This document shows positions 29,896-46,992 of a stretch of DNA of 64,000 bases, one piece after another. Within the stretch, counting starts at the first letter, position 1; every line of letters starts with the position of its first letter. Source of the DNA: Bacteroidota bacterium (GTDB taxonomy: Bacteria; Bacteroidota; Rhodothermia; Rhodothermales; UBA10348); assembly GCA_029262835.1 (NCBI GenBank), contig JAJCYQ010000043.1:1-64000 (forward strand), in the 5' to 3' direction. The notes below the pieces were generated by a model, which saw only the letters and a list, made by a program, of their open reading frames with translations, was not told where the DNA came from and made no database searches. A program made the translations under genes and the position numbers.

Positions 29896-31368
29896 ATGAA
29901 GCATATGTCCCATGATAACAAGAAGTACCGATTTCTGCTCGGTCTCGTGATGGCTGCCGCCATGATGTGGTCGCCGATCACCACGTTGACCCGCGACGCC
30001 CAGGCGCAGGATGCTCCGGGCCGCGACGAGGTGGCGGCCGAGGTTGCCGCGCTCATGCAGGAAGCCCGGATTGAAGGCGCGGCCATAGCGCTTATTTCTC
30101 GCGGCGAGGTGGCGTGGAGACTACCACTTGGCGTGCGTAGCCGTGTGAGTGGTGAACCGGTCACAGAGGAAACAGTCTTTGAAGCGGCGCTGCTCACCAA
30201 GCCCGTCGTGGCATATCTGGCACAGGCACTCAGCGATGCTGGCCTGTTCAACCTGGACCGCCCGTTGGCAGCATACCTGGGATATGACAGACGGGTGGCC
30301 GACCCGCGACTTTTTGAGGTGTCGGCGAGAACAGCTCTCATGCACAGCACGGGCTTTCCGAACTGGCGCCCGGCGGGTGGGGACCTGCTTATCGAATACG
30401 ATCCTGGAACCACGTTTTTGTATTCGGGTGAAGGGTTCGTCTTTCTCCAGCTTGCCATCGAAGAAGCGACAGGACGCACGCTCGAGTCCCTGGCCACTGA
30501 GTTCGTGTTTGAACCGCTTGGTATGACATCGAGCAGCCTGATCTGGAAAGAAGCGTTTGCCAGTCACCTGGCCGTCGCGCACGATTCCGAGGGAAACGGT
30601 CTCAACAAGTTCACTCCCGCCGAGGCGAATGCGGCGTTCAGTCTGCATACCACGGTCGGGGACTATGCCACGTTCATGTTGGCGCTTGCCAGAGGCGAGG
30701 GGCTGACCGAGGCCGCGCACATGGCGCTTACGACGCCGCAGATGTCGGCAGAGGATGGCATTTACTGGAGTGAGGGTCTGGGCCTCGAACCTCGGCGAGA
30801 AGGTCAGGCATTGTGGCACTGGGGCGACCAGAGCGGATATCGGAGCTTTGCCTACATTACGCCCGGGGCGGAAGAGGGCATGGTCTACCTGTCGAACAGC
30901 GAAAACGGTATGCTCATCCTGGACCGGCTCTATGAATTGCTCCTGTCGGGCCCGGCAACATCCATAGCGTGGCTCAATTACGAATCGCTCGATGATCCAG
31001 GATACCGGCTGGGGCGTCGCCTGCTCGATGCTCTGACCCTGGGCGGAGTGGAAGCGGCATTCGCAGAGTACGATGCCGCGCGCGCGCTGCTACCGGAAGA
31101 AGCCTTCGCCGAAGAGTCCCTCAACACGCTCGGGTACAAACTGTTACGGCAGGGACGGGTCGATGAGGCGATTGCCATGTTCGAGCTCAACACGGTCCAG
31201 TTTCCTCAGAGCTACAATGTGTATGATTCGCTCGGAGAAGCGTGGTACGCCAAAGGAGATCTCGAAAAAAGCCTGGACTTTTACCGGCGTTCGGTCCTTC
31301 TCAACCCGGACAATGAGAGCGGTAAGGCCATGATTGTTGTCATCCGCGACCGGATGGCCAGGAACTGA
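29896..31368 (+). CDS. Beta-lactamase/esterase-fold protein lacking the catalytic serine, with TPR domain
   Basis: This 490-residue exported protein has a signal peptide (cleavage after AQAQ, near 38). A class C beta-lactamase-like domain (about 45-345) is followed by a TPR region (about 375-480). The first motif normally reads SxxK in a context FEAASLSKP, but here it reads FEAALLTKP. The nucleophile position is L99 while K102 is kept. The second motif YSG (Y176) and the third, HWGDQSGYRS, are intact. Unless another nucleophile is used, the protein is a pseudoenzyme, perhaps a binding protein. The codon is CTG in clean surrounding sequence, with no frameshift. Confidence 0.85.
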   Translation: MKHMSHDNKKYRFLLGLVMAAAMMWSPITTLTRDAQAQDAPGRDEVAAEVAALMQEARIEGAAIALISRGEVAWRLPLGVRSRVSGEPVTEETVFEAALLTKPVVAYLAQALSDAGLFNLDRPLAAYLGYDRRVADPRLFEVSARTALMHSTGFPNWRPAGGDLLIEYDPGTTFLYSGEGFVFLQLAIEEATGRTLESLATEFVFEPLGMTSSSLIWKEAFASHLAVAHDSEGNGLNKFTPAEANAAFSLHTTVGDYATFMLALARGEGLTEAAHMALTTPQMSAEDGIYWSEGLGLEPRREGQALWHWGDQSGYRSFAYITPGAEEGMVYLSNSENGMLILDRLYELLLSGPATSIAWLNYESLDDPGYRLGRRLLDALTLGGVEAAFAEYDAARALLPEEAFAEESLNTLGYKLLRQGRVDEAIAMFELNTVQFPQSYNVYDSLGEAWYAKGDLEKSLDFYRRSVLLNPDNESGKAMIVVIRDRMARN

Positions 31369-31393: not shown

Positions 31394-33136
31394 TCACTCC
31401 GTGACCTCGAAGCCGAGCATCATGCCGGCGTGCAGGTGCTCAGCAATGTGGCAGTGCGCCATCCATTTCCCCGGGTTTGACATGTGTACGAGCAGGTCGA
31501 CCGTGGAGCCCACGGGGATAATGGTCGTGTCTTTCCAGACCAGGTTCGGATTCTCCACACCATCGATGTGCGTGACCAGGAAGCGCTGCCCATGGAAGTG
31601 GATGGGGTGATTCATGGGGTGGAATGAATCGGGCGTATTGAATATCCGCACCTTCACCACGTCATCCTTCTCGAAGGTCCATTCAATGTCCATGGACTCC
31701 CGGCCGGTGCTCTTCTCGCGCAGCAGCCACTCTACCTGCTCGCCGGTCGACAACCAATTCATCATAGGCATGGCATCGTTCCATTCAATGGGGGGCACGT
31801 AGAGCGTGTCGACCTCCATCATGCGCATGATTGGAAGGGGTAAATTGTCGACGCGCACGGTCAGTTCAAGCTCCTTGTCAGGCGCCTTGTCGAAGTAGGG
31901 CCGGAAGGTGTCGATGTCTGAGACCACATCTTCGTTCGTGCGGAGTTTGTGGAAAGCGTCTGCGTGCGACACGTCTGCGGGCGTGTCCGAGACGCGGATC
32001 GTTGCCAGGTTATGAATGGACGGGTAGAATTCTCCGCGGAAATGATCAATGGCCTGTACGGTATTGGTGACCGTGACCTCCCCCGCATCCTCAAACAGAA
32101 CATCCACGATGTAGCGCTCGGCGGGTGCAATGACGACGCTGCCGACGCTCATTTCCCGCTCGTATTTGCTGACGTCAGATGCCACAATTTTGATCGGGTT
32201 GCCACCGAAGACCACGTTGTAGGTGCGCGAATTGGCCACGTTCGTGAGGAAAAACCGGACCACTTCACCCTGCCTGACATCCATGGAAAAATCAGTTACG
32301 CCGTTGGTCAGCATGACGTTACCGAAGCGCCCCATGAGGGCGTGTGTAGGGGCGCTCTCGCCGTATGGAATGATTCCATTCGCATCGATCAGGATGTCGT
32401 CGAGAATGAGCGTCTGCTCGCGGTTGACCGGGGCGTAGTAGTCGTCCTCAATGGGAGAGACTAGCATGTTGCCGTAGAGTCCAAGGTCCTGTTGGACGTC
32501 CTCCCGCATGTGAGGATGATACCAGTAGAGGCCCGTATCGGGGAAATTAAGCTTGTAGAGGAAGCTCTCGCCCGATTCGACGGGCGCCTGTGAAATACCT
32601 GGAATGCCATCGAACCGGTAGTCATCAAGACGGAGGCCGTGCCCGTGCACGGTGGTAGGCTGGTCGATCGCGTTGACGAAGTGAACGTTGATATTGGCGC
32701 CTTTGTCTACGCGCAGCAGCGGTCCGGGGTACTGCCCGTTGTAACCCATCATGACGAGCGTCTGATCGCCGATCTGGCGCCTCACGAGTCCCGCCTGCAG
32801 ATGGATCGTGTCTCCATTTTTCACGTCCATGATTTCGAAGGGCCGGGCCTCGGGCACGGACATGGGGTCCAGACCCGCACCAGGCAGGTAAGCCGCCGTA
32901 ATGGGCACTTCGGATTCCATACCGGGCAGCATGGGCATGGACATGTTCATGGGAGGCATGCGCCATAGTACGCTGTCTCCCTGCATGACCGGCATGTCCA
33001 TGTTGTGGCCAGCGTGCATGTCCATATCCTGGGCCACGGCCGATGCCGACAGGCCACCGATGAGGAGTATGCCGACAAGAAGGGAGCCGGAGAGGGGAGT
33101 GCATGCCGGAAGGGCACGCAGAGGTCGGAGATGCAT
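31394..33136 (-). CDS. Multicopper oxidase (CopA/laccase-like), methionine-rich N terminus
   Basis: This 580-residue exported oxidase has a signal peptide to about 36. All copper-site motifs are present: HGHG at 164-167, WYHPH at 205-209, HPMNHPIHFHG late in the protein, and HCHIAEHLHAGMM at 561-573 with the type 1 copper ligands C562, H567 and probably M572. Residues 37-75 are unusually rich in methionine and histidine (MDMHAGHNMDM), as in copper-resistance oxidases. It probably oxidises Cu(I) or phenolic substrates outside the cell. It is the last gene of the minus-strand run that contains the LVIVD array. Confidence 0.93.
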   Translation of the reverse strand: MHLRPLRALPACTPLSGSLLVGILLIGGLSASAVAQDMDMHAGHNMDMPVMQGDSVLWRMPPMNMSMPMLPGMESEVPITAAYLPGAGLDPMSVPEARPFEIMDVKNGDTIHLQAGLVRRQIGDQTLVMMGYNGQYPGPLLRVDKGANINVHFVNAIDQPTTVHGHGLRLDDYRFDGIPGISQAPVESGESFLYKLNFPDTGLYWYHPHMREDVQQDLGLYGNMLVSPIEDDYYAPVNREQTLILDDILIDANGIIPYGESAPTHALMGRFGNVMLTNGVTDFSMDVRQGEVVRFFLTNVANSRTYNVVFGGNPIKIVASDVSKYEREMSVGSVVIAPAERYIVDVLFEDAGEVTVTNTVQAIDHFRGEFYPSIHNLATIRVSDTPADVSHADAFHKLRTNEDVVSDIDTFRPYFDKAPDKELELTVRVDNLPLPIMRMMEVDTLYVPPIEWNDAMPMMNWLSTGEQVEWLLREKSTGRESMDIEWTFEKDDVVKVRIFNTPDSFHPMNHPIHFHGQRFLVTHIDGVENPNLVWKDTTIIPVGSTVDLLVHMSNPGKWMAHCHIAEHLHAGMMLGFEVTE

Positions 33137-33196: not shown

Positions 33197-33778
33197 TCAG
33201 CGGTACCCGTACACAGCGCAGGGTTCGCTTTCAAAGGGGCCGTGGCCAGCCATGGTATGCATGAGTCCACTGCGGGACATGCCGCGGGCAACGATGGGGC
33301 CCGTCCATGTGGCCCCAGGATCCTCGGCGGCCGATTCGAGTGTTACAACGACCAGAAACTTGTTCCAGTCGACAGTTCCCTTGGTTTTGAGCTCATCGTC
33401 GAGCCGTCCAATGTGCCTGATTTTGTCCAGGTCGGGCGTCGTGACCCAGACGTCGAGTGCCTGGCCGTCTCGCAGGCGAACCTTCTCCATCGCAATGGAA
33501 AGATTATAGACGTACTGGCCGTTTTCAGAGATGGAGACCCCGAACGGACTTGTGGCAAACGTGACATCACCTTGGCCCTCGGCCATGCGGGTGCCCGGTA
33601 CCTTACGAGTAGGTACGAGGTCGATGGCGTAATACACCGGTGGATCTGGATCCAAGTCGGAACAGGCGGATACGGGTACAGGAATCCTTGCGTCGGACGC
33701 CGAAGGAAAGCTCATCCACGTGGCCGCAAGCAGCAACGCGCCGACCACGCCAAGTACGGAAAGAGTGGGAAGTTTCAT
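33197..33778 (-). CDS. Secreted protein of unknown function
   Basis: This 193-residue protein has an N-terminal signal segment (LGVVGALLLAATWM) and a mature part with many beta-strand-like stretches (VYYAIDLVP, VYNLSIAMEKVRL, KFLVVVTLESA). Two cysteines (near 39 and 187) could form a disulfide. No family is recognised. It lies between the last LVIVD gene and the multicopper oxidase with gaps of 54 and 60 bases, so it probably belongs to the same transcript and process. Confidence 0.65.
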   Translation of the reverse strand: MKLPTLSVLGVVGALLLAATWMSFPSASDARIPVPVSACSDLDPDPPVYYAIDLVPTRKVPGTRMAEGQGDVTFATSPFGVSISENGQYVYNLSIAMEKVRLRDGQALDVWVTTPDLDKIRHIGRLDDELKTKGTVDWNKFLVVVTLESAAEDPGATWTGPIVARGMSRSGLMHTMAGHGPFESEPCAVYGYR

Positions 33779-33832: not shown

Positions 33833-35197
33833 TCACTGGGCAGTATGTTCGTCCCATTTCTGCGCACTCGATACGTCGGGCAGTCCCCAGTCGGCACCGT
33901 TCCAGCCATCGAACCCTTCCATGCGGAAAGCCCAAAACCCGGTGGTCATGTCGGAAATCACAATAAGGCCATCGGCATTGCGGACATCCACACCGAATGC
34001 CCCATTACCCACGTTGCCCCCCATGGACCCGAGGCTGCGGGCTCCTGTGTAGGTGTCATAATAGCCGACCGTCTGCGGGTTCTCCGGATCCATGAGACTG
34101 AACACCTGCAGACCATCGTGGTAGCCCGATACAAAAACGTACGGCCAGCGCACTTCATGGTTGTGGACCAGATTCTCCCAGTGTGCGGTCCACGCACTGA
34201 TGGGCGAGCGGATATTCGACTGCTCACCGTCGAGTGCAGGTTGAACGTCAAATATGCGCAGCGGCGCGTACTGGTATTCCGTTTCCGTGATGACGTACCG
34301 ACCACGGGGCCCCGGGGTAACCGTATGCCCGCGCGACACACCCGTAATGCCGGTCATGGTCACAAGCAGGTCCGGGTTCTGGAGATCGGTAATATCGAAG
34401 ATGTAGTACCCGCCCGAGCCTCCACCGTAGAATCGGTCCGTATCCGTATCGACGTGGTACCCGGCATAGAAATCGTGGTAGCTCCCGCTTCCATTGCCAG
34501 CCCCGTCCGGGACCGGTATGTTGGCCACGAGTGCATTTTCGGCATCTCCCTCGACCACACGGCCAAGATCATACACATTGGCACCGGGACCACGTATGGT
34601 CGTCATCAGATAGACCCGGCCGTCTGAGTGGGCATAGACGAAGATGTTATGGAAGCCACCGGGTGTATCGGGCGCATGAATACGCGCCACTTCGCGGACG
34701 CTGCCGGCGTCGGGAAGACCTGTGACATCAAGCACAACGGCGCCGAGGTCGTTATTCGGTCCGGTTCCCAGTTGCAAGCCCTGCACTACGTAGTAGCGGC
34801 CGTTCCACTTGAAATGCTTCACGTCAACGCCTCCGGCTCCCGTGTGCAACTCCTGGTTCTCAATGCGCCACCGGTACACGACCTGTGGCCGTGCAGGATC
34901 GGAAATGTCGATGATATCTGTCCCGCGCTCCACACTTTCATTTCGGGCCCGCCTCGAGACATACACATAGGGCCGGTCGAGTTCCTGCTCCATGTCCATA
35001 TCAGCCACTGTCATCACGGCTCCAAGCGGAAGGTGCCCAACGACTTCGATGTTATCCGACCCCGGGTTGAGTGCCGTCCACGGGGTGCCCTGCTCCTGGG
35101 CCGAGGCCCGGTTCGTGCTTCCTGCGCACAATACAAGCAGGCCAAGCACGAGGAGGCGGGCAACCGGGTTGAGCGCGTGACAGGATCGGCACATCAT
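33833..35197 (-). CDS. LVIVD beta-propeller protein, array copy 7 (last)
   Basis: This 454-residue secreted protein has a signal ending at NRASA. Features shared with its six neighbours are a PGSDNIEVVGHLPLG start, GGFHNIFVYAHSDGRVYL, DRFYGGGSGGYYIFDI, HNHEVRWPYVFVSGYHDGLQ, and a closing FRMEGFDGWNGADWGLPD. The repeated strand-rich blades fit the LVIVD repeat family, whose molecular function is unknown. The start overlaps copy 6 by 4 bases in the ATGA style. It differs from copies 5 and 6 mainly in the signal peptide and in a glycine-rich loop (DGAGNGSGS). Confidence 0.85.
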   Translation of the reverse strand: MMCRSCHALNPVARLLVLGLLVLCAGSTNRASAQEQGTPWTALNPGSDNIEVVGHLPLGAVMTVADMDMEQELDRPYVYVSRRARNESVERGTDIIDISDPARPQVVYRWRIENQELHTGAGGVDVKHFKWNGRYYVVQGLQLGTGPNNDLGAVVLDVTGLPDAGSVREVARIHAPDTPGGFHNIFVYAHSDGRVYLMTTIRGPGANVYDLGRVVEGDAENALVANIPVPDGAGNGSGSYHDFYAGYHVDTDTDRFYGGGSGGYYIFDITDLQNPDLLVTMTGITGVSRGHTVTPGPRGRYVITETEYQYAPLRIFDVQPALDGEQSNIRSPISAWTAHWENLVHNHEVRWPYVFVSGYHDGLQVFSLMDPENPQTVGYYDTYTGARSLGSMGGNVGNGAFGVDVRNADGLIVISDMTTGFWAFRMEGFDGWNGADWGLPDVSSAQKWDEHTAQ

Positions 35198-36555
35198 CGT
35201 GAGCCCTCCCGGGACTCCTCATCCCATTTCTGGACGCTCGATACGTCGGGTACGCCCCAGTCGGCACCATTCCAGCCATCGAACCCTTCCATTTTGAAGG
35301 TCCAGAAGCCGGTCATCATGTCCGAGACCACAATCAGGCCGTCGGCATTGCGCACATCGACCCCGAAAGCGCCGTTCATGACGCCGCCATTTCCGGGCTC
35401 AAGCGCGGGTCCCGTGTAGGTATCGAAGTATCCGACCGTCTGCGGATTTTCCGGATCCATCAGGCTGAAGACCTGCAGACCGTCAAGGTAGCCCGAGACG
35501 AAAACGTAGGGCCAGCGCACTTCATGGTTGTGGGACAGGTTCTTCCAGTTGGCCGTCCAGGCCGAGATGGGCGAGCGGATGTTGGTCACCTCTCCGTCGA
35601 GTGCCGGCTTCAGATCGAAAATGCGAAGCGGTGCGTACTGGTACTCGGTTTCGGCAATGACGTAGCGCCCGTTGGGTCCTGGCGTGAACGTGTGCCCCCG
35701 CGTGACGCCGTTGATGCCAGTGAGTGAAACCACCAGTTCCGGATTTTCCAGATCCGTGATGTCATAGACGTAGTATCCGCCCGAGCCGCCACCATAGAAC
35801 CGGTCCGTTTCGGTTTCTTCGTGCCATCCGACGTAGAAATCGTGATACGCCCGCCGGATGTCACCGTCGGCAGGTATCGGCACCTGGCCAATCAGGGCAC
35901 GACCGGCATCGCCAGAGACGACCTTCGACAGATCGTAGATGTGCGCCGTGTCACCACTTATGGTCGTGAACAGAAGCGGCACCCCACTCGAGTGCTTGTA
36001 GATAAAGATGTTGTGGAAGCCACCCGGCTTGTCGGGCTCGGCAATCCTGGCCACTTCGACAGGTGGTTTGCCGCTGGGCAGGTCAGTGACGTCGAATACA
36101 ATGCCTCCAAGATCGTAATTCGGTCCCGGGCGGAATTGCACGGCAAGCACCACGTAGTACCGGCCTGCATGCTTGAAATACTTTACGTCCAGCCCGCCGC
36201 GACCCAGGTGAAGTTCTTCATTCTCAATACGCCACTCGTGTGCCACGACGGGCGCAGAAGGGTCGGTCAGGTCAATGACGTCCATGCCCATGGCAAGCGC
36301 CTCGTTGAATCGCGCGCGCGCCACGTAGGCATAGGGCCGGGAGAGTTCCTGTTCCAGTTCAATGTCGGCCACGGTCTCGGGTCCGCCCAGCGGTACATGG
36401 GCCACGACTTCCATGTTGTCAGAGCCCGGCTTGATGGGTGTCCAGGGAGCGTCCTGGGCCACGACACCAGGACCTGCCAGCGCCCAGACCAGGATTGTCG
36501 CCAAGGCGGCCGTTGCCCCATGCCGTTTCCAGCAGTGAATGATGGTCGTGTTCAT
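35194..36555 (-). CDS. LVIVD beta-propeller protein, array copy 6
   Basis: 453 residues, with the signal ending near GVVAQ. The blade repeats read VEVARIAEPDKPGG, LIGQVPIPADGDIRRAYHDFYVGWHEETETDRF and VSLTGINGVTRGHTFTPGPNGRYVIAETEYQ. The segment YHDFYVGWHEETETDRFYGG is almost the same in copy 5, so these two look like the most recent duplicates. It is separated from copy 5 by 20 bases. A candidate calcium- or metal-binding acidic stretch (EETETD) is inferred only from composition. Confidence 0.85.
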   Translation of the reverse strand: MNTTIIHCWKRHGATAALATILVWALAGPGVVAQDAPWTPIKPGSDNMEVVAHVPLGGPETVADIELEQELSRPYAYVARARFNEALAMGMDVIDLTDPSAPVVAHEWRIENEELHLGRGGLDVKYFKHAGRYYVVLAVQFRPGPNYDLGGIVFDVTDLPSGKPPVEVARIAEPDKPGGFHNIFIYKHSSGVPLLFTTISGDTAHIYDLSKVVSGDAGRALIGQVPIPADGDIRRAYHDFYVGWHEETETDRFYGGGSGGYYVYDITDLENPELVVSLTGINGVTRGHTFTPGPNGRYVIAETEYQYAPLRIFDLKPALDGEVTNIRSPISAWTANWKNLSHNHEVRWPYVFVSGYLDGLQVFSLMDPENPQTVGYFDTYTGPALEPGNGGVMNGAFGVDVRNADGLIVVSDMMTGFWTFKMEGFDGWNGADWGVPDVSSVQKWDEESREGSR

Positions 36556-36575
36556 GTGTTTGTCCTCGTGTCTGT

Positions 36576-37913
36576 TCAGTCGTCGAATTTCTGTGCGCTC
36601 GATACGTCGGGTACACCCCAGTCCGCACCGTTCCAGCCATCGAACCCTTCCATTTTGAAGGTCCAGAAGCCGGTCGACATGTCCGAAATGACGATAAGTC
36701 CGTCTTCGTTGCGGACGTCGATCCCGAAGGCGCCGTTGAACATCGGGTTGCGCCCTTCGGCATACGGACCCACATAGGTATCGTAGTAGGCGACGGTCAC
36801 CGGGTTTTCGGGATCGGCCATACTGACAACCTGCAGTCCGTCGTGATAGCCGGAAACGAACACGTAGGGCCAGCGCACTTCGTGGTTGTGCACAACGTGT
36901 CGCCAGTTGGGCGTCCAGCCGGCAATGGGTTGGCTGATGTTGGAGACCTCGCCGTCGAGTGCGGGTTTGAGGTCAAAAATCCGGAGCGGTGCAAACTGGT
37001 ACTCCGTTTCGGCAATGACGTACCGGCCAGTCGGGTCGGGCGTGAACGTGTGGCCGCTCGTTACCCCATTGATCCCGGTCAGGGATGCCAACAGCTCAGG
37101 GTTTTCAAGATCCGTGACATCATATACGTAGTACCCGCCGCGGCCCCCTCCGTAGAATCGGTCGGTTTCGGTCTCTTCGTGCCATCCGACATAGAAATCG
37201 TGATACGCCCGGCGGGACGTCTCCTGGGGCAGCGGGACGCGGCCTACGAGCGCCTCATCCATGCGGCCCTCGACGACATGGCCCAGATCATAGATATGGG
37301 CCGTTGAGCCCTGGACCGTCGAGAACAGGTAGACACGTCCGTTTGAATGCCTGTAGACAAAAATGTTGTGGAACCCACCCGGGAAATCAGGCTCATGGAT
37401 GCGCGCCACTTCGGTGACGGCGTCCGGGTTGGGCAGCCCGGTTACATCGAGCACCACAGCGCCCAGGTCATTGTTCGGGCCGCCCTGTCCGAATTGCAAC
37501 GATTGCACCACATAGTAGCGCCCGTCCCACTTGAAGTACTTAACATCCATGCCGCCCGTGCGCTGGTGCAGCTCCTGGTTTTCTATCCGCCAGCGGTAAA
37601 TGACCTCAGGGTTGGCGGGGTCGGATACGTCTATGATATCCGTTCCTTTGTCCCCCTCCCAGCCATAGACCATTCGCGATACGTAGGCATACGGCCGGTT
37701 CATTTCCTGCTCCAGGTCCACATCGGCCACGCTCAGGATGGGTCCGAGCGGAATGTGTCCCAGAACTTCGATATTGTCAGAACCCGGGTTGAGTGCTGTC
37801 CAGGGCGTGTCCTGCTGCGCTGCGGCGCGATCCGTGATGGCGAAAGCCATCAGGATCGCGCCCAGTGCCGCCGTGAGCATGCCGCGCGAGCCGGAATGTA
37901 GTCCAGAAGTCAT
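36576..37913 (-). CDS. LVIVD beta-propeller protein, array copy 5
   Basis: 445 residues; the signal ends near TDRAAAQ. It keeps the conserved HNHEVRWPYVFVSGY blade and the C-terminal FKMEGFDGWNGADWG. It is distinguished by HQRTGGMDVKYFKWDG and by VSMADPENPVTVAYYDTYVG instead of the FSLMDPENPQT found in copies 6 and 7. It overlaps copy 4 by 4 bases. Nucleotide similarity to copies 6 and 7 over the last 75 codons is visibly high, which suggests recent duplication or gene conversion. Confidence 0.85.
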   Translation of the reverse strand: MTSGLHSGSRGMLTAALGAILMAFAITDRAAAQQDTPWTALNPGSDNIEVLGHIPLGPILSVADVDLEQEMNRPYAYVSRMVYGWEGDKGTDIIDVSDPANPEVIYRWRIENQELHQRTGGMDVKYFKWDGRYYVVQSLQFGQGGPNNDLGAVVLDVTGLPNPDAVTEVARIHEPDFPGGFHNIFVYRHSNGRVYLFSTVQGSTAHIYDLGHVVEGRMDEALVGRVPLPQETSRRAYHDFYVGWHEETETDRFYGGGRGGYYVYDVTDLENPELLASLTGINGVTSGHTFTPDPTGRYVIAETEYQFAPLRIFDLKPALDGEVSNISQPIAGWTPNWRHVVHNHEVRWPYVFVSGYHDGLQVVSMADPENPVTVAYYDTYVGPYAEGRNPMFNGAFGIDVRNEDGLIVISDMSTGFWTFKMEGFDGWNGADWGVPDVSSAQKFDD

Positions 37914-39283
37914 TTCGTGCCTTCTTTCGATTCTTCGTCAAACTGCTGTGCGCTGGAAATATTCGGCTGTCCCCAGTCCTCACCGTTCCAGCCATTGAAT
38001 CCTTCCATGCGGAACGTCCAGAAACCGGTGGTCATGTCGCTGATCACGATCAGGCCGTCTTCGTTTCGGACGTCCACGCCGAAGGCGCCGTTCGCTACCG
38101 CGCCCTCCATGACGCCTGCTTCACGCGATCCCGTGTAGGTGTCGAAGTAGCCGACCGTGACAGGGTTGTCCGGATCCATCATGGAAAAGACCTGGAGTCC
38201 GTCGTGGTAGCCTGAAACAAAAACGAATGGCCAGCGCACTTCGTGGTTGTGCACCAGGTTCTTCCAGTTGGCGGTCCAGGCCGAAATGGGCTCGCGAATG
38301 TTTGTTACTTCGCCGTCGAGTGCCGGCTTGAGGTCGAACATGCGGAGCGGGGCATACTGGTATTCGGTTTCCGTGACGACGTAGCGGCCATCTGGGCTGG
38401 GAGTGAACGTGTGGCCGTAGCGCACGCCCGTTACGCCCGCGAGCGTAATCTCAAGCCCCGGATTCTCGGGATCGGTCACGTCATATACATAGTATCCACC
38501 CGTACCACCGCCATAGAACCGGTCCTGCTGCGTGTCCGGATGCCAGGCTACATACAGGTCATGGTAGGAACCACTCGTTTCGCCGCCCGGGAGCGGGACC
38601 GGGACGGTGCCGACAAAGCCCTTGTCCGAGTCGCCGTCCACAATTGCGCCCAGGTCATAGATGTGCGCATTCGGTCCGGAAACCGTTGTGAAGAGGTAGA
38701 CGCGCCCGTTCGAGTGCTTGTACACAAAAATGTTGTGGAAGCCACCGGGCAGGTCCGGTTCGTGGATTCGTCCCACTTCGCGTACGGTGTCGGCATCGGG
38801 AAGGCCGGTCACGTCCAGGATGTAGGCCCCGAGATCATTGTTCGGTCCGGGCCCGAACTGGGTGGACTGCACCACATAATAGCGGCCGTTCCATTTGAAA
38901 TACTTCACGTCCATTCCCCCGAGGCCTGTGTGGAGCTCCTGGTTCTCTATGCGCCAGCGCTTGAGGACTTTCGGATTCGCTGGGTCGGAGATGTCAATGA
39001 TATCCGTACCCCGCTCAATGCCCTCCCCCACCGTGCCACGGGATACATAGACATAGGGGCGCGACATTTCCTGCTCAATGTCGAGGTCTTTCGTGTTGAG
39101 CGGCATGCCGAGGGGCAGGTGTCCCTCGACTGTCATGTTGTCCGAGCCGGGCTTGAGCGGCGTCCATGGGGTTTCGTCCTGTGCCAGGACGGCCGGGGCC
39201 GCCAGGCCACTTGCGAGCAGGGCGAAGGTAAATGTGGCGGCCAGCAGGCGGGTGGCCACTGGGCGCGCGGAGAACTTTTTCAT
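37910..39283 (-). CDS. LVIVD beta-propeller protein, array copy 4
   Basis: 457 residues from MKKFSARP, with a signal ending at AVLAQ; an upstream in-frame ATG at 39337 was rejected because it delays the signal peptide. The body keeps GGMDVKYFKWNGRYYVVQ, GGFHNIFVYKHSNGRVYLFTTV and RFYGGGTGGYYVYDV. The closing motif reads FNGWNGEDWGQPNISSAQ, shared with copy 3 but not with copies 5-7, so the array splits into two C-terminal subtypes. A 100-base gap to copy 3 is the longest in the array and could hold an internal promoter. Confidence 0.85.
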   Translation of the reverse strand: MKKFSARPVATRLLAATFTFALLASGLAAPAVLAQDETPWTPLKPGSDNMTVEGHLPLGMPLNTKDLDIEQEMSRPYVYVSRGTVGEGIERGTDIIDISDPANPKVLKRWRIENQELHTGLGGMDVKYFKWNGRYYVVQSTQFGPGPNNDLGAYILDVTGLPDADTVREVGRIHEPDLPGGFHNIFVYKHSNGRVYLFTTVSGPNAHIYDLGAIVDGDSDKGFVGTVPVPLPGGETSGSYHDLYVAWHPDTQQDRFYGGGTGGYYVYDVTDPENPGLEITLAGVTGVRYGHTFTPSPDGRYVVTETEYQYAPLRMFDLKPALDGEVTNIREPISAWTANWKNLVHNHEVRWPFVFVSGYHDGLQVFSMMDPDNPVTVGYFDTYTGSREAGVMEGAVANGAFGVDVRNEDGLIVISDMTTGFWTFRMEGFNGWNGEDWGQPNISSAQQFDEESKEGTK

Positions 39284-39383
39284 GCGTTTGAATCGTGTTG
39301 GTCTGTAAAAAATGTGTGGCAGCCCGACGCTGCCCATGCGCTATAGAAGCGTGTGCGACGGTTTTTCAACGAACATTCAGGGC

Positions 39384-40709
39384 TCACCGGGTGCCGTCCT
39401 TGGACTCCTCGTCCCAGTTCTGCACGCTTGAAATATTGGGCTGGCCCCAATCTTCCCCGTTCCAGCCGTTGAAGCCTTCCATGCGGAAGGTCCAGAAGCC
39501 GGTCGACATGTCGCTCACCACGATGAGTCCGTCTTCATTGCGAACATCGACACCGAAGGCTCCGTTGATGACGGCGTTCAGGCCAGTGTCGGGGTCACCG
39601 ATGAACGTATCGTAGTACCCCACCGTCTGCGGGTTCTTCGGATCCATCAGGCTGAAGACCTGGAGCCCATCGAGATAGCCCGATACGAAGACGTATGGCC
39701 AGCGGACCTCATGATTGTGGGAGAGGTTCTTCCAGTTGGCTGTCCAGGCGGAAATGGGCGAACGGATGTTCGATACCTCACCATCGAGTGCCGGTTTGAG
39801 GTCAAAAATGCGCAGCGGCGCGTACTGGTACTCGGCCTCGGCGACCACGTATCGGCCATCAGGGCTCGGCGTAAAGGTGTGCCCCCATTCAACGCCGTTG
39901 ATGCCGGTCAGTGTGGCGCGGATTTCCGGATTCTGAAGGTCAGTGATGTTGAAGACAAAATAGCCACCCGTTCCACCACCGTAGAAACGGTCTTCACCGC
40001 TGTCGGGATGGTACCCGACGTACATGTCGTGGTAGGACGTCTGTGCCACGCCTTCCATCGGGTTGGGAATCGTGGCCACGTGCGCGCGGGCCAGGTCGCC
40101 CGCTACAACGCGTTCCAGGTCATAGACGCGGACGTCATCGCCGCGGACCGTGGCAAACAGGTAGGTGCCGCCATCAGAGTGCTTGTATATAAAAATGTTG
40201 TGGAAGCCGCCGGGATGCTCCGGCTCTTCCATGCGTGCAATCTCGATGACCTTCGACGGATCGGGCAGACCGGTCACGTCAAAAACGACCGCGCCGAGTT
40301 CCCGGGCCGGGCCGCTACTGAATTCGAACGACTGCACCACATAGTACCGGCCGTCTATCTTGAAATACTTTACGTCCATGCCGCCTCGATTCTGCAGCAG
40401 GTCCTGGTTCTCGAGGCGCCAGCGCAGGATTACCTCCGGCTTGGCAGGATTCGAAAGGTCGATGATATCCATGCCCTTGGGACCTCCGTCGACGATGGAT
40501 GCCCGGCTGACATAGGCATAGGGCCGCGACAGCTCCTGTTCGAGCTCCATATCGGTCACACTGGACGTCTTGCCGAGCGGAACGTGCCCAAGGACCTCCA
40601 TATTGTCTGAACCCCGCTTGAGTTCAGTGGCCTGGCCGAGGACAGGTGAGGTCCCGGCGGCAAAAAGGAGGACGAAAAAGAGGAGAAAGGTGGGGAATCT
40701 CATGTTCAT
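39384..40709 (-). CDS. LVIVD beta-propeller protein, array copy 3
   Basis: 441 residues; the signal MNMRFPTFLLFFVLLFAAG ends near PVLGQ. This copy has lost the tryptophan-containing TPW stretch after the signal and goes straight to ELKRGSDNMEVLGHVPLG. It carries RVYDLERVVAGD and QTSYHDMYVGYHPDSGEDRFYGG. The C-terminal subtype is FNGWNGEDWGQPNISSVQ. Its start codon overlaps the copy 2 stop by one base (TAATG), a strong sign of translational coupling. Confidence 0.85.
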   Translation of the reverse strand: MNMRFPTFLLFFVLLFAAGTSPVLGQATELKRGSDNMEVLGHVPLGKTSSVTDMELEQELSRPYAYVSRASIVDGGPKGMDIIDLSNPAKPEVILRWRLENQDLLQNRGGMDVKYFKIDGRYYVVQSFEFSSGPARELGAVVFDVTGLPDPSKVIEIARMEEPEHPGGFHNIFIYKHSDGGTYLFATVRGDDVRVYDLERVVAGDLARAHVATIPNPMEGVAQTSYHDMYVGYHPDSGEDRFYGGGTGGYFVFNITDLQNPEIRATLTGINGVEWGHTFTPSPDGRYVVAEAEYQYAPLRIFDLKPALDGEVSNIRSPISAWTANWKNLSHNHEVRWPYVFVSGYLDGLQVFSLMDPKNPQTVGYYDTFIGDPDTGLNAVINGAFGVDVRNEDGLIVVSDMSTGFWTFRMEGFNGWNGEDWGQPNISSVQNWDEESKDGTR

Positions 40710-42082
40710 TAATCGAGTAGTTTGCGCTGGGCAGAAGATTCGTTGGGCATGCCCCAGTCTTCGCCGTTCCAGCCGTTGAAGCCATCCATGCGGAAGGCCC
40801 AGAATCCGGTGGTCATATCGGAAATCACGATGAGCCCGTCGGCGTTGCGCACGTCAACGCCCCAGGCGCCATCATACACGTTCCAGGTATACGGGCTGCC
40901 AAGGCGCTCCAGAGCGGCCTGGCGGTCATTATGAACGCCACTATACGTATCATAATACGCCACGGTATACGGATTCGTGGGGTCGGCCATATTGAAGACG
41001 CCGAGCCCGGTTTCGTACCCGGACACAAACACGTATGGCCAGCGCATTTCATGGTTGTGGGCTACGGCGCGCCAGTCGGCCTGCCAGTACCCCACGGCAT
41101 GATCAATCTTGTCCACCTCACCACTCAGGCCCGGGCGGAGATCGAAAATCCGCAGCGGCTGGTACTGGAATTCGGTCTCACCGACCGCAAAGTTGCCATC
41201 GGGCGTGGGCGTGAACGTGTGTCCCCAGGATACGCCGGGGACGTCCAGGATTTTGGTGAGCAGGTTGGGAGATCCGGGGTCGGTCACGTCATACACGTAA
41301 AAACCGCTGCCTCCGCCCCCGTAGAACCGGTCCTGGCCACTCTCGGGGTGATACTGCACCATGAAATCATGGTACCCGCGAGACCACATGTTTTCAGATT
41401 CAGCCACGGGCACCATGCCAACGAGTTCGCGGTTCTCATCCCGCAGGACGTCTTCCATTTCAGACTGATCGCCGTCGACGAAACGGGCCATGTCGAATAC
41501 CTTCGCGTGTTGGCCTGACGTGGCAAAAAGCAGCGGTTTGCCCTCGGAGTGCTCGTACATGAAAATGTTGTGGAAGCCCCCAGGCGCGGACGACTGGCGA
41601 ATGCGCCCAACTTCGGTGAAGGACTCCGGCAGGTCGGTCACGTCGAATACGATGGCTCCAACATCCGAATTTGGTCCGCTCTGGCGAAGCTGCATGGACT
41701 GGACATAGTAGACCCGGCCGTCCCAGGCGAAATACCGCCCATCCATGGCGCCACCCACATGCAGCTCCTGGTCTTCGATGCGCCAGCGGTGAATGACGCG
41801 GGCCCGGTCCGGATTGGAGAGGTCAATAATGTCGAACCCGATCTCATCTACCCGACGCGCCACGTACGCGTACGGTCGGTCCAGTTCCTGTTCTATCTCA
41901 ATGTCCGATATGCTGCCTGGCGTGCCCAGCGGGATATGCGAGAGCACCGTGATGTTGGCCGATCCCCGTTCACCGGGCGGCGGCGGGTGCGCGGGTTGTT
42001 CGATACCGAGTTGGGCGAGGGCCGGCAGGCCCGAGCCCATAAGGAGTAGGGCTATGCCGGATAAAAGTGCATTTTTTACCAT
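40709..42082 (-). CDS. LVIVD beta-propeller protein, array copy 2 (diverged)
   Basis: 457 residues from MVKNALLSG, with the signal ending at PALAQ, followed by a proline-rich stretch (HPPPPGERG). The core motifs remain (GGFHNIFMYEHSEGKPLLF, DRFYGGGGSGFYVYDV, AHNHEMRWPYVFVSGYETG). A loop before the propeller midpoint is longer than in copies 3-7 (FVDGDQSEMEDVLRDENREL). It ends in FNGWNGEDWGMPNESSAQ. It overlaps copy 1 by 7 bases. It is clearly a member of the same family but an older branch. Confidence 0.83.
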   Translation of the reverse strand: MVKNALLSGIALLLMGSGLPALAQLGIEQPAHPPPPGERGSANITVLSHIPLGTPGSISDIEIEQELDRPYAYVARRVDEIGFDIIDLSNPDRARVIHRWRIEDQELHVGGAMDGRYFAWDGRVYYVQSMQLRQSGPNSDVGAIVFDVTDLPESFTEVGRIRQSSAPGGFHNIFMYEHSEGKPLLFATSGQHAKVFDMARFVDGDQSEMEDVLRDENRELVGMVPVAESENMWSRGYHDFMVQYHPESGQDRFYGGGGSGFYVYDVTDPGSPNLLTKILDVPGVSWGHTFTPTPDGNFAVGETEFQYQPLRIFDLRPGLSGEVDKIDHAVGYWQADWRAVAHNHEMRWPYVFVSGYETGLGVFNMADPTNPYTVAYYDTYSGVHNDRQAALERLGSPYTWNVYDGAWGVDVRNADGLIVISDMTTGFWAFRMDGFNGWNGEDWGMPNESSAQRKLLD

Positions 42083-43362
42083 GATACATTCTCCATAGGT
42101 CCATTTTCCCAGTCCTGCACGTCGCTCACGTTGGGAAGACCCCATCCGCGGCCGTCCCAGCCCTCGAAGGCCTCGAGCCTGAACAGGAACAGGCCTTCAT
42201 GCTGGTCGGCGACAGCCACCAGGCCATCATGATTGCGTACATCCACGTCGCGCGCCCCGACTGGTGCCTGGCCCGGCGCGGGAACGGAGCCCTGGTAGGT
42301 GCGGAAGAACGCGTCGGTGTAAGGCGCGACCGGATCCATCATGTTGACCACCTGGAGCCCTTCCTCGAAGGCGGCCACGAAAATAAAGGGCCACCGGACC
42401 GTGTGACGCTCGATCGGGCGTCGCCAGTTGGCCGTCCATGCTCCCACAGCGGTCCGCATGACGGGCACAGCGCCGTCAAGCGCGGGGCGCATGTCGAAAA
42501 TCCGAATAGGTGCCGTCTCGTAACCCGCCGTCGTGACCAGATGCGTACCGTCGGGCGTTGCCCGCACGGCGCGTCCCACCTGGACCGCAGCGGAGTTGAC
42601 CTGGGTCACCAGACGCGGAGCGTCCATGTCCGTGATATCAAAAATGTAGTATCCGCCCGCTCCGGAGGCGTACAGGCGGTCCGATTCGGAATCCGCGTGG
42701 TAGGCGGCCCAGGCGTCGTGGAATCCATAATCCACATTCGGAACGGGTTCGGGCAGACCAATCTGCGCGTAAGGCTCATCCCGGCCCGAGAGGACCGCTT
42801 CGATGTCATGGACCAGGATATCTCCGCCCGCCGCGACAAAGAGCCAGGACGCGCCGCTTCCTGAACGGTAGGCGAATACGTTGTGGATGGCGGAGGCGGC
42901 ACCTGCTGCGCCCGTCAGCACGGCGACCGGCTCGGGGCGCTCTGGATCGGAGACGTTCCAGACTTCAAGTGATGACCCACCGAGTACGAGATAGCTGTCG
43001 CCACCGTGGCGAAAGCCGTCGAGTGAGGACCATGAGCTCCCGTCCGTTCTGGCCGCATGGACAATGCGTGGCGCGCGTTCGTCAGAGACGTCGACAATAT
43101 GCCATGCGCCGGGGCCCGCTGCGTAGATGAATGGACGCTCCGCGTGCTGATCAACGAAAACAGCCCGAAGTGCGTCATGTCCTCCAAGCGGTATCTGTGC
43201 GAGGAGCTCGACGTTGCGGCTCGCCCGTTCGTCACGCTGTTGGGCGTCGACCGTGGGCACAAAAAGGGGCAACACGAGCGCAAAAAGCAGTAAAGTGAGC
43301 GACGGGCAGGAAGTAAGCGCTCGCGCGAACGATCGGCCGCGCGGCCAGCAGGAAACCGTCAT
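42076..43362 (-). CDS. LVIVD beta-propeller protein, array copy 1 (most diverged)
   Basis: 428 residues, the first copy in the direction of transcription. A signal-like segment (SLTLLLFALVLPLFV) is followed by VDAQQRDERASRNVELLAQIPLGG. Blade motifs are recognisable but altered: IHNVFAYRSGSGASWLFVA, DRLYASGAGGYYIFDI, RHTVRWPFIFVAAFEEGLQ and FEGWDGRGWGLPNVSDVQ. The HNHE sequence of the other copies is replaced by IERHT, and the YGGG of RFYGGG by YASG. If those residues form an active or binding site, this copy may be a structural or regulatory partner. Confidence 0.75.
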   Translation of the reverse strand: MTVSCWPRGRSFARALTSCPSLTLLLFALVLPLFVPTVDAQQRDERASRNVELLAQIPLGGHDALRAVFVDQHAERPFIYAAGPGAWHIVDVSDERAPRIVHAARTDGSSWSSLDGFRHGGDSYLVLGGSSLEVWNVSDPERPEPVAVLTGAAGAASAIHNVFAYRSGSGASWLFVAAGGDILVHDIEAVLSGRDEPYAQIGLPEPVPNVDYGFHDAWAAYHADSESDRLYASGAGGYYIFDITDMDAPRLVTQVNSAAVQVGRAVRATPDGTHLVTTAGYETAPIRIFDMRPALDGAVPVMRTAVGAWTANWRRPIERHTVRWPFIFVAAFEEGLQVVNMMDPVAPYTDAFFRTYQGSVPAPGQAPVGARDVDVRNHDGLVAVADQHEGLFLFRLEAFEGWDGRGWGLPNVSDVQDWENGPMENVSW

Positions 43363-43425: not shown

Positions 43426-44346
43426 TTACATGGACTTCCGGGGAGCGACACGCCGTACGTCATCCGAACGCTCCCCGCAATGGCTCAGCACGCCGTCCCA
43501 TGCCCCGATGAGCCGCCGACGCAGCTCCTGCGCCCGCCCGAAAAAAACCCGTTGCCGCTCCGCGTACTCGGCGCGTCCTTCGGGTGTTTCGACGCAGACG
43601 GGCGAGAGCCCCCTGGCGCGGAGATCGTACGGGCTCGCCCGCATGTCCAGCATACGGATGTCAAAGGCCAGCGCAAGGCCATCTACAATGAGCTCTGAAG
43701 CAATCCAGGGCCACCCCTTGTACGCCCACTTGTAGAGATCCATGCCGGCATGCAGGCACCCTGGTTGCTCCACCTCCAGCGCGTCCTCGCGCGCGAAACT
43801 GGCCGCATTCAGGGGCTTGGCCGGTTCGGTAAAGAACCGGAATGCGTCGAAGTGCGTGCAGCGCGGCCCGACGTCTTCGACCGTACGGTCGATGTCCCTG
43901 CGCGAGAGCCGGAGCGGTACGTTTCCGTGGCGCACGGCCCCACCGCCATAAACCATGGCCCACTCGTGCATGCCCGCGCAGCCGTAGAGCGGCGGCCTAT
44001 CCGCCGTTCGCACGAGGAGTTCGCGTATATACCGGAATCCATCCTGTCGATGCGCCGGTATGCGCCCGGGATCGAGCCGGACGCGCCCCTCGCCAACGGG
44101 CATCCAGAAGCCGATTACCACGCCATGTGGCTCCAGCGGACCATCGATTTCCAGTTCCACACCCAGCCCTGGCGACCAGGCCCGGAGGTGGGCCATGCGG
44201 AACCGGTAGTACTCGAACAGGAAATCGGTGACGGGGTCTTTCTCGTGCCGCGCCCTGCGCTCCACATGCGAATCCACGAGTTCAGACACGCGTTTTGCGT
44301 GCTTGTGAGCGGCTTGTTTCCATGCTGTGTGCGTCATGACAACCAT
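43426..44346 (-). CDS. Conserved protein related to actinobacterial proteins annotated 3-methyladenine DNA glycosylase
   Basis: This 306-residue cytoplasmic protein shows DPVTDFLFEYYRFR, CAGMHEWAMVYGG, RCTHFDAFRFFTEPA, QPGCLHAGMDLYKWAYKG and LDMRASPYDLRARG. I recall this pattern from proteins automatically labelled 3-methyladenine DNA glycosylase, a label with little support; it has no helix-hairpin-helix. The function is therefore open. The conserved histidines, cysteines and aspartates suggest an enzyme. The start at 44346 has GAGG 5 bases upstream; an ATG three codons later is possible. It lies 63 bases upstream of the first LVIVD gene and may share its transcript. Confidence 0.65.
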   Translation of the reverse strand: MVVMTHTAWKQAAHKHAKRVSELVDSHVERRARHEKDPVTDFLFEYYRFRMAHLRAWSPGLGVELEIDGPLEPHGVVIGFWMPVGEGRVRLDPGRIPAHRQDGFRYIRELLVRTADRPPLYGCAGMHEWAMVYGGGAVRHGNVPLRLSRRDIDRTVEDVGPRCTHFDAFRFFTEPAKPLNAASFAREDALEVEQPGCLHAGMDLYKWAYKGWPWIASELIVDGLALAFDIRMLDMRASPYDLRARGLSPVCVETPEGRAEYAERQRVFFGRAQELRRRLIGAWDGVLSHCGERSDDVRRVAPRKSM

Positions 44347-44453
44347 ACTCGCCTCAAACACCCCGGGTACGCGGCAGATCCGCCTTGTCCCCGTCATGCA
44401 TCCATTCGTCCCACCTGGCTTGCCATCCATCCCTCACACGCGTAGTCTGTGAC

Positions 44454-45569
44454 ATGATTTCGCCAGCCATCAGAAACACGATATGGCGGGTCGCGGGGCA
44501 GCTCCTGCTCTGGACATCGCTCGGTCTGTTCTTCACCGTACAGAGCGTGTTGACCTATGTTGCCCAGGGAAATGAGGCCCGGCTGGGGGCGCCCCTGATA
44601 TATCAGCTTGGTTACTGGTATGTCTGGGGCCTGCTGTCTCCACTCATGTTCCTGGCTGCTCGGCGCTGGCCTATTGGAGAAATCGGCACCCGGCAACCGG
44701 GTGTCACGCCCGGGGGGCGCTCGCCGCACAGGGGAAATGTACTCCGCCTCATCGGTCTCTCCCTGGTGATGGCGCCGCTGCAGGTCGTCGTATCGACGCT
44801 CGTCCGCTCCGGGGGCATGTACTCGGCGGGGATTATTTCGGAAGAGGTTTTTCATTCGCAGCTTGGGAGGCTGTTGCCGCTGCTCCCGATCCAGAGTTTC
44901 GATGCGCTCTTCACGTTCTGGGTCATCCTTGGCGTGTACCTCGGCATCCGGTACTACAGGCAGTCCAAGGAACAGGACCTTGCCAATCAGCGGCTGCAGG
45001 CGGACCTTTCCGACGCCCGGTTGCAGAACCTGCGCGCGCAACTGCGTCCCCACTTTCTGTTCAATACGCTGAACAGCATCAGCGCCCTGGTCGCCGAATG
45101 TCCGGACAGGGCCGAGCAGATGATTGCGCGGCTGAGCCACCTGCTCCGGCGATCCCTCGACTCGGACACGCGAACGCTCGTCCCGGTGGTCGAGGAGATG
45201 GATTTCATTCGGACCTACCTGGAAATCGAAGAAACGCGGTTCGGGGACCGGCTTTCGATTGAGATCGATGTCCAGCCAGAGACGGAGCTGCTCACCGTGC
45301 CCGCGCTGATCCTGCAGCCGCTTGTAGAGAACGCCGTGGTGCACGGCGTCGCTCCGTTCGACAGTCCTGGCAGGATCACGGTCATGTCGCGCCTCGAGGG
45401 GGATGTGCTCTGCCTCTCGGTCCGGGATACCGGTCCGGGTGTGCCGCCGGGCACAGTGTTCGGCATTGGGCTTTCCAACACGCGTTCACGGCTCGCGCAG
45501 CTCTACGGAGAGGCGGCCGAGCTGAAGGTGGACGGCAACCTGGTCACCATTCGACGAAAGAACCCATGA
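44454..45569 (+). CDS. LytS/YehU-type sensor histidine kinase
   Basis: This 371-residue membrane kinase has about four N-terminal hydrophobic segments (10-165) and no separate sensor domain. The His_kinase motif is LRPHFLFNTLNSIS with H200 as the phosphorylated histidine. The ATPase part shows LQPLVENAVVHG (N box), DTGPGVPPGTVFGIGL (G boxes) and NTRSRLAQLYG. Kinases of this family pair with LytTR regulators, as here: the stop overlaps the regulator start by 4 bases. The signal sensed is unknown. It is divergent from the run leading into the LVIVD array, which makes that array a possible target. Confidence 0.9.
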   Translation: MISPAIRNTIWRVAGQLLLWTSLGLFFTVQSVLTYVAQGNEARLGAPLIYQLGYWYVWGLLSPLMFLAARRWPIGEIGTRQPGVTPGGRSPHRGNVLRLIGLSLVMAPLQVVVSTLVRSGGMYSAGIISEEVFHSQLGRLLPLLPIQSFDALFTFWVILGVYLGIRYYRQSKEQDLANQRLQADLSDARLQNLRAQLRPHFLFNTLNSISALVAECPDRAEQMIARLSHLLRRSLDSDTRTLVPVVEEMDFIRTYLEIEETRFGDRLSIEIDVQPETELLTVPALILQPLVENAVVHGVAPFDSPGRITVMSRLEGDVLCLSVRDTGPGVPPGTVFGIGLSNTRSRLAQLYGEAAELKVDGNLVTIRRKNP

Positions 45570-46324
45570 TACGCACACTCATTGTCGATGATGAGCCGCT
45601 CGCGCGCGACCGCATGCGGCGTCTTCTGTCCGAGGAGCCGGACATCGAGCTTCTTACGCCATGCGGCTCGGGTCCTGCGGCGCTCGCGGCCATCCGAAAA
45701 CACGCACCGGACCTGGTGTTTCTGGATATCCAGATGCCCGGCATGTCGGGTCTCGATGTCGTAGAGAAGCTCGGAGAGGGCGAGTATCCATACATTATTT
45801 TCGTAACGGCGCACGATACCTACGCGCTGAAGGCCTTCGACGTGCATGCGCTCGACTACCTGCTCAAGCCCTACGACCGGGAGCGATTCCGGCGGGCGGT
45901 CGCGCACGCCCGGTCCATGCTGCTTGGAAACGGATCGGAACGTGTGCTCGAGCGCATAAAAGCGCTTGGCGAGCGCTTCCACGTGGTTACGGGTGGCCGC
46001 GTTACGGTTGTACCGGCGCGCGACGTGGACTGGATTGAATCGGCGGGTAATTATCTGGTGCTGCACGAAGGTCCCCGCAAACACCTGCTGCGCTCAACCA
46101 TGCACGAAGTGGAAGAGCGCCTCGGGCCTCCTTTTTTCCTGCGTGTGCATCGATCGGCCATGGTGCGCCTCGCCGCCGTGCGCGAATTCCGGCCGACGGG
46201 AAGTGGCTCCTATATCCTGGAACTGAGCAGTGGAGCACAGGTCGCAGCCAGTCGATCCTACCGGAAAAGCATCCGCGAGCACCTTTCGTCCCAGCGCCCG
46301 GCACCCTCGTCACAGAAAAGGTAA
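45566..46324 (+). CDS. LytTR-family response regulator
   Basis: This 252-residue regulator has a receiver domain (1-120). The acidic pocket is in IVDDEPLARDR, the phosphorylated aspartate is D54 in VFLDIQMPG, and the receiver ends in ALDYLLKPYDRERF. A LytTR DNA-binding domain follows (about 148-245), with the signatures IESAGNYLVLHEG and FFLRVHRSAMVRLAAV. LytTR regulators bind direct repeats upstream of targets, often cell-surface or secretion genes. Its own neighbours are candidate targets, but no LytTR direct repeat was identified by eye. Confidence 0.92.
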   Translation: MIRTLIVDDEPLARDRMRRLLSEEPDIELLTPCGSGPAALAAIRKHAPDLVFLDIQMPGMSGLDVVEKLGEGEYPYIIFVTAHDTYALKAFDVHALDYLLKPYDRERFRRAVAHARSMLLGNGSERVLERIKALGERFHVVTGGRVTVVPARDVDWIESAGNYLVLHEGPRKHLLRSTMHEVEERLGPPFFLRVHRSAMVRLAAVREFRPTGSGSYILELSSGAQVAASRSYRKSIREHLSSQRPAPSSQKR

Positions 46325-46983: not shown

Positions 46984-46992
46984 CGGCGCGTC

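Follow-up and report, generated by a model that had tools for sequence, protein, structure and literature searches.

Seven propeller genes lead into a conserved module

Why should a bacterium carry seven related genes for exported proteins, one directly after another? The question is raised by a stretch of 64,000 nucleotides (hereafter, the window) that makes up positions 1 to 64,000 of contig JAJCYQ010000043.1, in the GenBank assembly GCA_029262835.1 of a Bacteroidota bacterium of the order Rhodothermales. On its minus strand, positions 33833-43362 hold seven paralogous open reading frames, transcribed from 43362 downward, whose exported products we call LV proteins. An original prediction, made from the letters of the DNA, had described seven tandem paralogues of a secreted LVIVD beta-propeller protein on one strand, and this arrangement was borne out, as was the spacing of the copies, with overlaps of 1-7 bases or gaps of 20-100 bases. 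The predicted lengths of 428-457 residues also hold, once the likely internal start codons of copies 2 and 4 are used; the overlap between copies 1 and 2 is then 7 bases. The array runs directly into two further genes on the same strand, encoding a small exported protein (D193) and a multicopper oxidase (MCO), which are preceded by gaps of 54 and 60 bases, and no gap from copy 1 to the MCO gene exceeds 100 bases. Our main finding is the conservation of this LV-D193-MCO module, together with the orderly way in which it has expanded in Rhodothermales. In order of transcription, the genes are:

42076..43362, minus strand: LV copy 1, first transcribed; a diverged class in which a ring of conserved residues (see below) is degenerate
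40709..42082, minus strand: LV copy 2, 457 residues, likely start at an internal ATG (42082); its own orthologous class (25-member clade, support 0.99)
39384..40709, minus strand: LV copy 3; in a 22-member cross-genus clade (support 0.98)
37910..39283, minus strand: LV copy 4, 457 residues, likely start at an internal ATG (39283); the protein used for the structure model
36576..37913, minus strand: LV copy 5; clusters with copy 5 of locus L019 (support 1.0)
35194..36555, minus strand: LV copy 6; in a 10-member clade of low support (0.21)
33833..35197, minus strand: LV copy 7, adjoining D193; shares a 72-leaf clade (support 0.97) with copy 5 and with the single-copy genes from other phyla
33197..33778, minus strand: D193, an exported beta-sandwich protein of 193 residues that tracks LV across the order
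31394..33136, minus strand: MCO, with the copper-ligand motifs of its superfamily and a Met/His-rich N-terminal segment

A single scan across bacterial and archaeal genomes yielded 77 loci (78 with the window), which are numbered with the prefix L. D193 is present in 56 of the 78 and MCO in 57, and the remainder are mostly cut by contig ends or carry solo LV genes. The arrangement of one to eight LV genes with D193 and MCO is found again in Rhodothermales, Gemmatimonadota, Acidobacteriota and other Bacteroidota, and loci labelled Gemmatimonadota and Acidobacteriota commonly have the version with a single LV copy. Two genomes that belong to the class but not to the order carry the module as well; D193 was recognised in one of these, while in the other (L098) no D193 passed the gene caller. 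Among 114 genomes of the order, 45 encode LV proteins, and a stand-alone D193 gene occurs in 43 of these 45 and is absent from the remaining 69 (Fisher p 2e-29, a statistic that ignores phylogeny). Furthermore, D193 and MCO genes are fused in several Gemmatimonadota loci and on contig 12 of the window's own genome. Taken together, the shared neighbourhood, the co-occurrence and the fusions make it very likely that LV, D193 and MCO form a functional module. This gene module is apparently undescribed, and a literature search for LVIVD together with multicopper oxidase found nothing.

The original prediction likened the array to arrays of surface receptors. This analogy finds no support in the operon, where neither an anchor nor a TonB/SusD-type partner was found. 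The conserved partners are instead an exported MCO and the small exported D193, and they suggest an oxidase module that is periplasmic or secreted.

The copies are old and keep a fixed order

The LV copies are old and separately maintained, and several of them are orthologous by position across genera. Copies 3-7 share 63-67% pairwise identity among themselves, copy 2 is 52-55% identical to them, and copy 1 is 34-36% identical to the other copies. Fourfold-degenerate sites are saturated, at only 34-49% identity between copies, and no recent homogenisation is seen. Arrays with at least three copies, the window included, are present at 27 of the 78 loci, and their order is fixed: a degenerate copy 1 is followed by a copy of the copy-2 type and then by core copies. 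The diverged copy 1 heads 25 of these 27 arrays, the exceptions being L027, which is cut by a contig end, and L032. The phylogenetic tree, in which the long branch of copy 1 makes the root uncertain, recovers the cross-genus clades of copies 2 and 3. Genomes of the window's family usually have 4-9 LV matches and those of two other families about 4-5, while most other families have none.

These data exclude an artefact in which the array would be a one-off duplication introduced by assembly, since the copies are orthologous by position across genera, their synonymous sites are saturated, and arrays recur in the 27 loci. We also considered recent gene conversion as the reason why the C-terminal half of the proteins is better conserved. 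At fourfold sites, identity in this half is higher by only a little, and by just as much between genomes, so selection explains its better conservation.

The original prediction further held that four sequence motifs are common to all copies, with only the closing motif altered in copy 1. This is accurate for copies 2-7, apart from small variants in copies 2 and 4 (HNHEMRWP, HNHEVRWPF), but in copy 1 every one of the four is lost, the counterparts being SAIHNVF, RLYASGAGGYY, ERHTVRWPFIFVAAF and GWDGRGWG.

The partner proteins

The MCO has three Cu-oxidase domains and carries the type 1, 2 and 3 site motifs of its superfamily. Its 53 orthologues keep HxHG, HPH, HPMNHPxHxHG and HCHIAEHLxAGM, as well as a WRMPPM..MPM.PG segment that follows the His/Met-rich mature N-terminus. 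It thus resembles CueO, CopA-PcoA and laccase in its three domains, in the motifs HxHG, HPH, HPxHxHG and HCHxxxHxxxxM, and in having a Met-rich segment, but differs from them in lacking a twin-arginine-type signal and in being partnered with D193 and LV. It is not a CueO or CopA equivalog, as it scores 137 bits against the NCBIfam cut-off of 525 bits for CueO and 136 bits against that of 479 bits for CopA. A twin-arginine-like pattern was found in only 2 of 48 orthologues, in both possibly upstream of the true start. This rarity suggests that the enzyme is probably exported unfolded and acquires its copper outside the cytoplasm.

D193 matches no named family above threshold in scans of Pfam and NCBIfam; the best Pfam trace is RskA_C (15 of 53 members, best E 2.5e-4). 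Its structure model is a beta-sandwich (predicted local distance difference test, pLDDT, 79.7). The C-terminal tail (RGMSRSGxMHTMAGHGPF), nearly invariant at residues 165-180, is modelled partly with low confidence; such a tail could be a docking or metal-binding segment. Fold matches to SOD1-like proteins (Z 8.6) and to P19/HftA (E about 0.01) reflect a weak sandwich likeness that is not interpretable as function.

The D193-like domains fused to MCO are encoded at L093 (4182-6290, on contig 12 of the window's own genome) and at L046, L048-L051 and L056-L059. The fusions in Gemmatimonadota are apparently lipoproteins (LAGFLPGC).

An invariant His/Asp ring in a seven-bladed propeller

The structure model of copy 4 (without its signal peptide, built with 58 sequences) has a pLDDT of 93.4, a predicted template modelling score (pTM) of 0.93 and the strand pattern of seven blades, and its Z scores of about 30 to propellers agree with a seven-bladed beta-propeller. 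In the numbering of mature copy 4, the residues that are 100% conserved across 135 core and 25 copy-2 sequences are D31 in blade 1, D90 in blade 2, H148 in blade 3, H206 in blade 4, H256 in blade 5, H310 with N311-H312-E313 in blade 6, and D369 in blade 7, as well as E35, D59, E270 and E272. Four His and two Asp (D31, D90, H148, H206, H256 and H310) make up a ring with one residue per blade in six of the seven blades. The first residue of each conserved set lies in or beside the innermost strand of its blade, near the start of the strand. In propellers, the starts of the innermost strands are the place of central-pocket ligands. We consider it probable, judging from conservation and position in the sequence, that the ring is a metal site.

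The original prediction depended on a pocket shared by the copies. Copies 2-7 indeed keep one invariant ring, but copy 1 has lost much of it: in place of D31, D90, H256, E270, E272 and H310 it has A, S, R, T, G and E, respectively.

The best Foldseek E-value for the copy 4 model was obtained with the propeller phosphotriesterase 5hrm, and the only Protein Data Bank (PDB) sequence match of note for LV is the same enzyme (Sb-PTE, 5hrm/5ioj), the phosphotriesterase or haloalkylphosphorus hydrolase of Sphingobium sp. TCM1. Both are seven-bladed propellers; compared by fold and sequence, they differ in that identity is 16%, the TM-score (template modelling score) reaches 0.64 at best and the sequence E-value is 0.005, and we found no reported link of the Sphingobium enzyme to an MCO. 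According to a title cited in PMC11656708, the 5hrm enzyme has a binuclear metal centre in its seven-bladed propeller.

We also considered SBP56. SBP56, or methanethiol oxidase (PF05694), is a metal-associated propeller family. An hhalign comparison with PF05694 gave a probability of 5% over 79 columns only, and the window's own genome has no SBP56 match.

LV proteins are a subfamily beside choice-of-anchor B

The label 'LVIVD' of the original prediction is loosely right, in that LV proteins and LVIVD repeat proteins (PF08309) are of the same broad kind of secreted propeller repeat. However, no scanned window copy attains the gathering score of PF08309 (20.2 bits): one of the five scanned copies matches, at 16.3 bits, and the other four give no match. 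At E <= 0.01, PF08309 is matched by 13 of 58 LV members. TIGR04312 (choice-of-anchor B), on the other hand, is matched by each of the 58 sequences of the core and copy-2 types, with E-values no better than 5e-18, and its curated cut-off of 100 bits is unreached in every score seen (17-63 bits for the scanned window copies). A full-length hhalign comparison of LV with a choice-of-anchor B profile, the latter built from 20 true members from relatives, gave a probability of 98.8% (E 1.4e-16, 338 columns).

Residue by residue, the aligned choice-of-anchor B proteins have the same types as LV at D31, D90, H148-N149, H206-D207, H256 and H310-N311. All six ring positions are thus shared, whereas D369 of blade 7 does not align with such a residue type. 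LV proteins differ in adding HNHE (H312, E313), E270/E272 and the YGGG and GWNG-DWG motifs, in lacking the C-terminal extension of Rhodothermales choice-of-anchor B members, and in being encoded with D193 and MCO. By these sequence comparisons, LV proteins are a distinct subfamily beside choice-of-anchor B.

TIGR04312 has 18 matches in the window's own genome, those of the array among them, which leaves about 11 further members (true choice-of-anchor B). Their genes lie on contigs C12, C13, C15, C27, C56, C75, C92 and others. Most genomes of the window's family have a similar number of choice-of-anchor B proteins, a second large expansion of the superfamily. A choice-of-anchor B protein compared with PDB sequences gave no match. 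In the literature that we searched, we found neither a study on the function of LVIVD proteins nor any paper that uses the phrase 'choice-of-anchor B'. LVIVD and choice-of-anchor B proteins form a large orphan superfamily, one subfamily of which is now tied to an MCO and to a new small exported protein. The metal-site-like ring that is common to LV and choice-of-anchor B makes the function of this superfamily directly testable.

Differences between copies are concentrated in two blades

The original prediction offered two explanations for the size of the array, a quantity effect or a set of related ligands. We defined specificity positions as those fixed within, but different between, the classes of copies 3, 4, 6 and 7, and compared them with positions of equal conservation that are the same in these classes, using a custom script with six threshold settings as an indirect test. 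Blades 1-2 hold an excess of the copy-distinguishing positions at each of the six settings (p 1e-4 to 7e-4), and so do the ring-side loops (D-A, B-C), versus the opposite loops, at four of the six (p 8e-4 to 0.03). They probably cluster on the same face as the ring. This enrichment favours different ligands or partners over dosage. Together with the age of the copies and their positional orthology across genera, it leaves the set of related ligands better supported than the quantity effect. On these comparisons of sequences, we lean slightly towards a diversification of specificity between the copies.

A proposed mechanism and its alternatives

The reading that we favour, with a probability of roughly 0.45 or less, is that the LV copies are a set of substrate-differentiated metal-site propellers that feed or gate one copper oxidase. 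The array would be the expanded part of a conserved exported module with three components, namely the LV propeller or propellers, D193 and the Met/His-rich MCO. The ring, plus the second His of HNHE and two Glu residues, would bind a metal at the starts of the innermost strands and form the functional site. In each of copies 2-7 the pocket rim, formed by blades 1-2, could be adapted to a small ligand or partner of its own. All LV copies would act for the one oxidase whose gene closes the operon, and D193 would be an MCO adaptor or copper-handling subunit. Copy 1, whose site is degraded yet which heads nearly every array, may be a non-catalytic scaffold or regulatory member. A doubtful extension of this proposal is an exported oxidase system in which a positionally fixed set of up to eight metal-site propellers, with different pockets and a degenerate scaffold at the head, would provide combinatorial substrate selection for one oxidase.

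Several observations count against the feeding or gating of one oxidase. Solo LV genes without a nearby D193 or MCO occur at L030, L041, L047, L080, L086 and L087, so that LV can work without the oxidase. The module is defined by gene neighbourhood, much of it from metagenome assemblies, and tree support is poor for copies 4 and 6. The geometry of the ring and its placement on a 'top face' are predicted from strand positions and standard propeller topology. Moreover, Sb-PTE matches only weakly in sequence, its fold match is not unique, and the fold list ranked by Z is filled by unrelated WD40 proteins, also with Z of about 30, so the fold match alone says little.

A somewhat unlikely alternative is copper handling, in which the module would oxidise Cu(I) and store or deliver copper, LV and D193 would be periplasmic copper binders that load the MCO, and the array would raise capacity. 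The mature MCO starts with a His/Met-rich segment in nearly all orthologues and, as it is probably exported unfolded, must gain copper outside the cytoplasm; the conserved Met/His tail of D193 and a gene for a HupE/UreJ-type membrane protein upstream in some Gemmatimonadota loci also fit. However, copper-resistance genes were not seen beside the module in the loci examined, one copy suffices in most Gemmatimonadota and Acidobacteriota loci, and pure storage leaves unexplained why old, separately conserved copies differ around one site. It is improbable that the array simply makes more of one protein. Functional equivalence of the copies would agree with the identical ring of copies 2-7 and with the encoding of all copies in one operon, but not with saturated fourfold sites that lack recent homogenisation, with cross-genus clades of copies 2 and 3, with class-fixed differences concentrated in two blades, or with the retention of copy 1 despite its degraded site. 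Finally, LV proteins might be hydrolases of the propeller phosphotriesterase type whose function is unrelated to the neighbouring oxidase, the linkage being historical. Sb-PTE's place as best Foldseek E-value and only notable PDB sequence match, and the existence of solo LV genes, speak for this. We nevertheless regard it as very improbable, given that the sequence similarity is marginal and that linkage to D193 and MCO and co-occurrence hold both within the order and across phyla. The natural single-copy forms of Gemmatimonadota and Acidobacteriota and the Rhodothermales arrays of 3 to 8 copies offer a built-in comparison of what the extra copies contribute.

Neighbouring genes

Upstream of the array lies one further gene on the same strand:

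43426..44430, minus strand: U334, a protein of 334 residues

U334 is found upstream in 12 Rhodothermales arrays, including that of the window, and is absent from single-copy loci. It has no Pfam, NCBIfam or clear PDB relative, and it probably adjoins the core module without belonging to it. Promoter and terminator scans stayed at chance level. A terminator-like hairpin lies at 39318-39334, in the gap from copy 4 to copy 3; the region has no more sites of this kind than expected from shuffled sequence.

In Gemmatimonadota, genes for a HupE/UreJ-type membrane protein and a CehA/McbA-like PHP metallohydrolase lie directly upstream of LV at L060, L061, L062, L064, L065, L067, L070-L073, L079 and L081 (the HupE/UreJ Pfam match was tested in L060). 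The solo LV gene of L030 (8702-9850) is directly downstream of an apparent Rieske-type oxygenase gene, as read from the sequence. An apparent conserved neighbour at L049 (8082-9482) was rejected, as it looks like an antisense shadow open reading frame.

On the other side of the MCO gene of the window, and convergent with it, is a gene with a beta-lactamase fold and TPR (29896-31368), which is conserved downstream in 10 other module loci. A LytTR-type two-component system, encoded at 44385-46324, runs divergently from the array, and in L016 the system is adjacent as well. Beside the two-component system of the window are two tandem YceI-domain genes (46387-47595).

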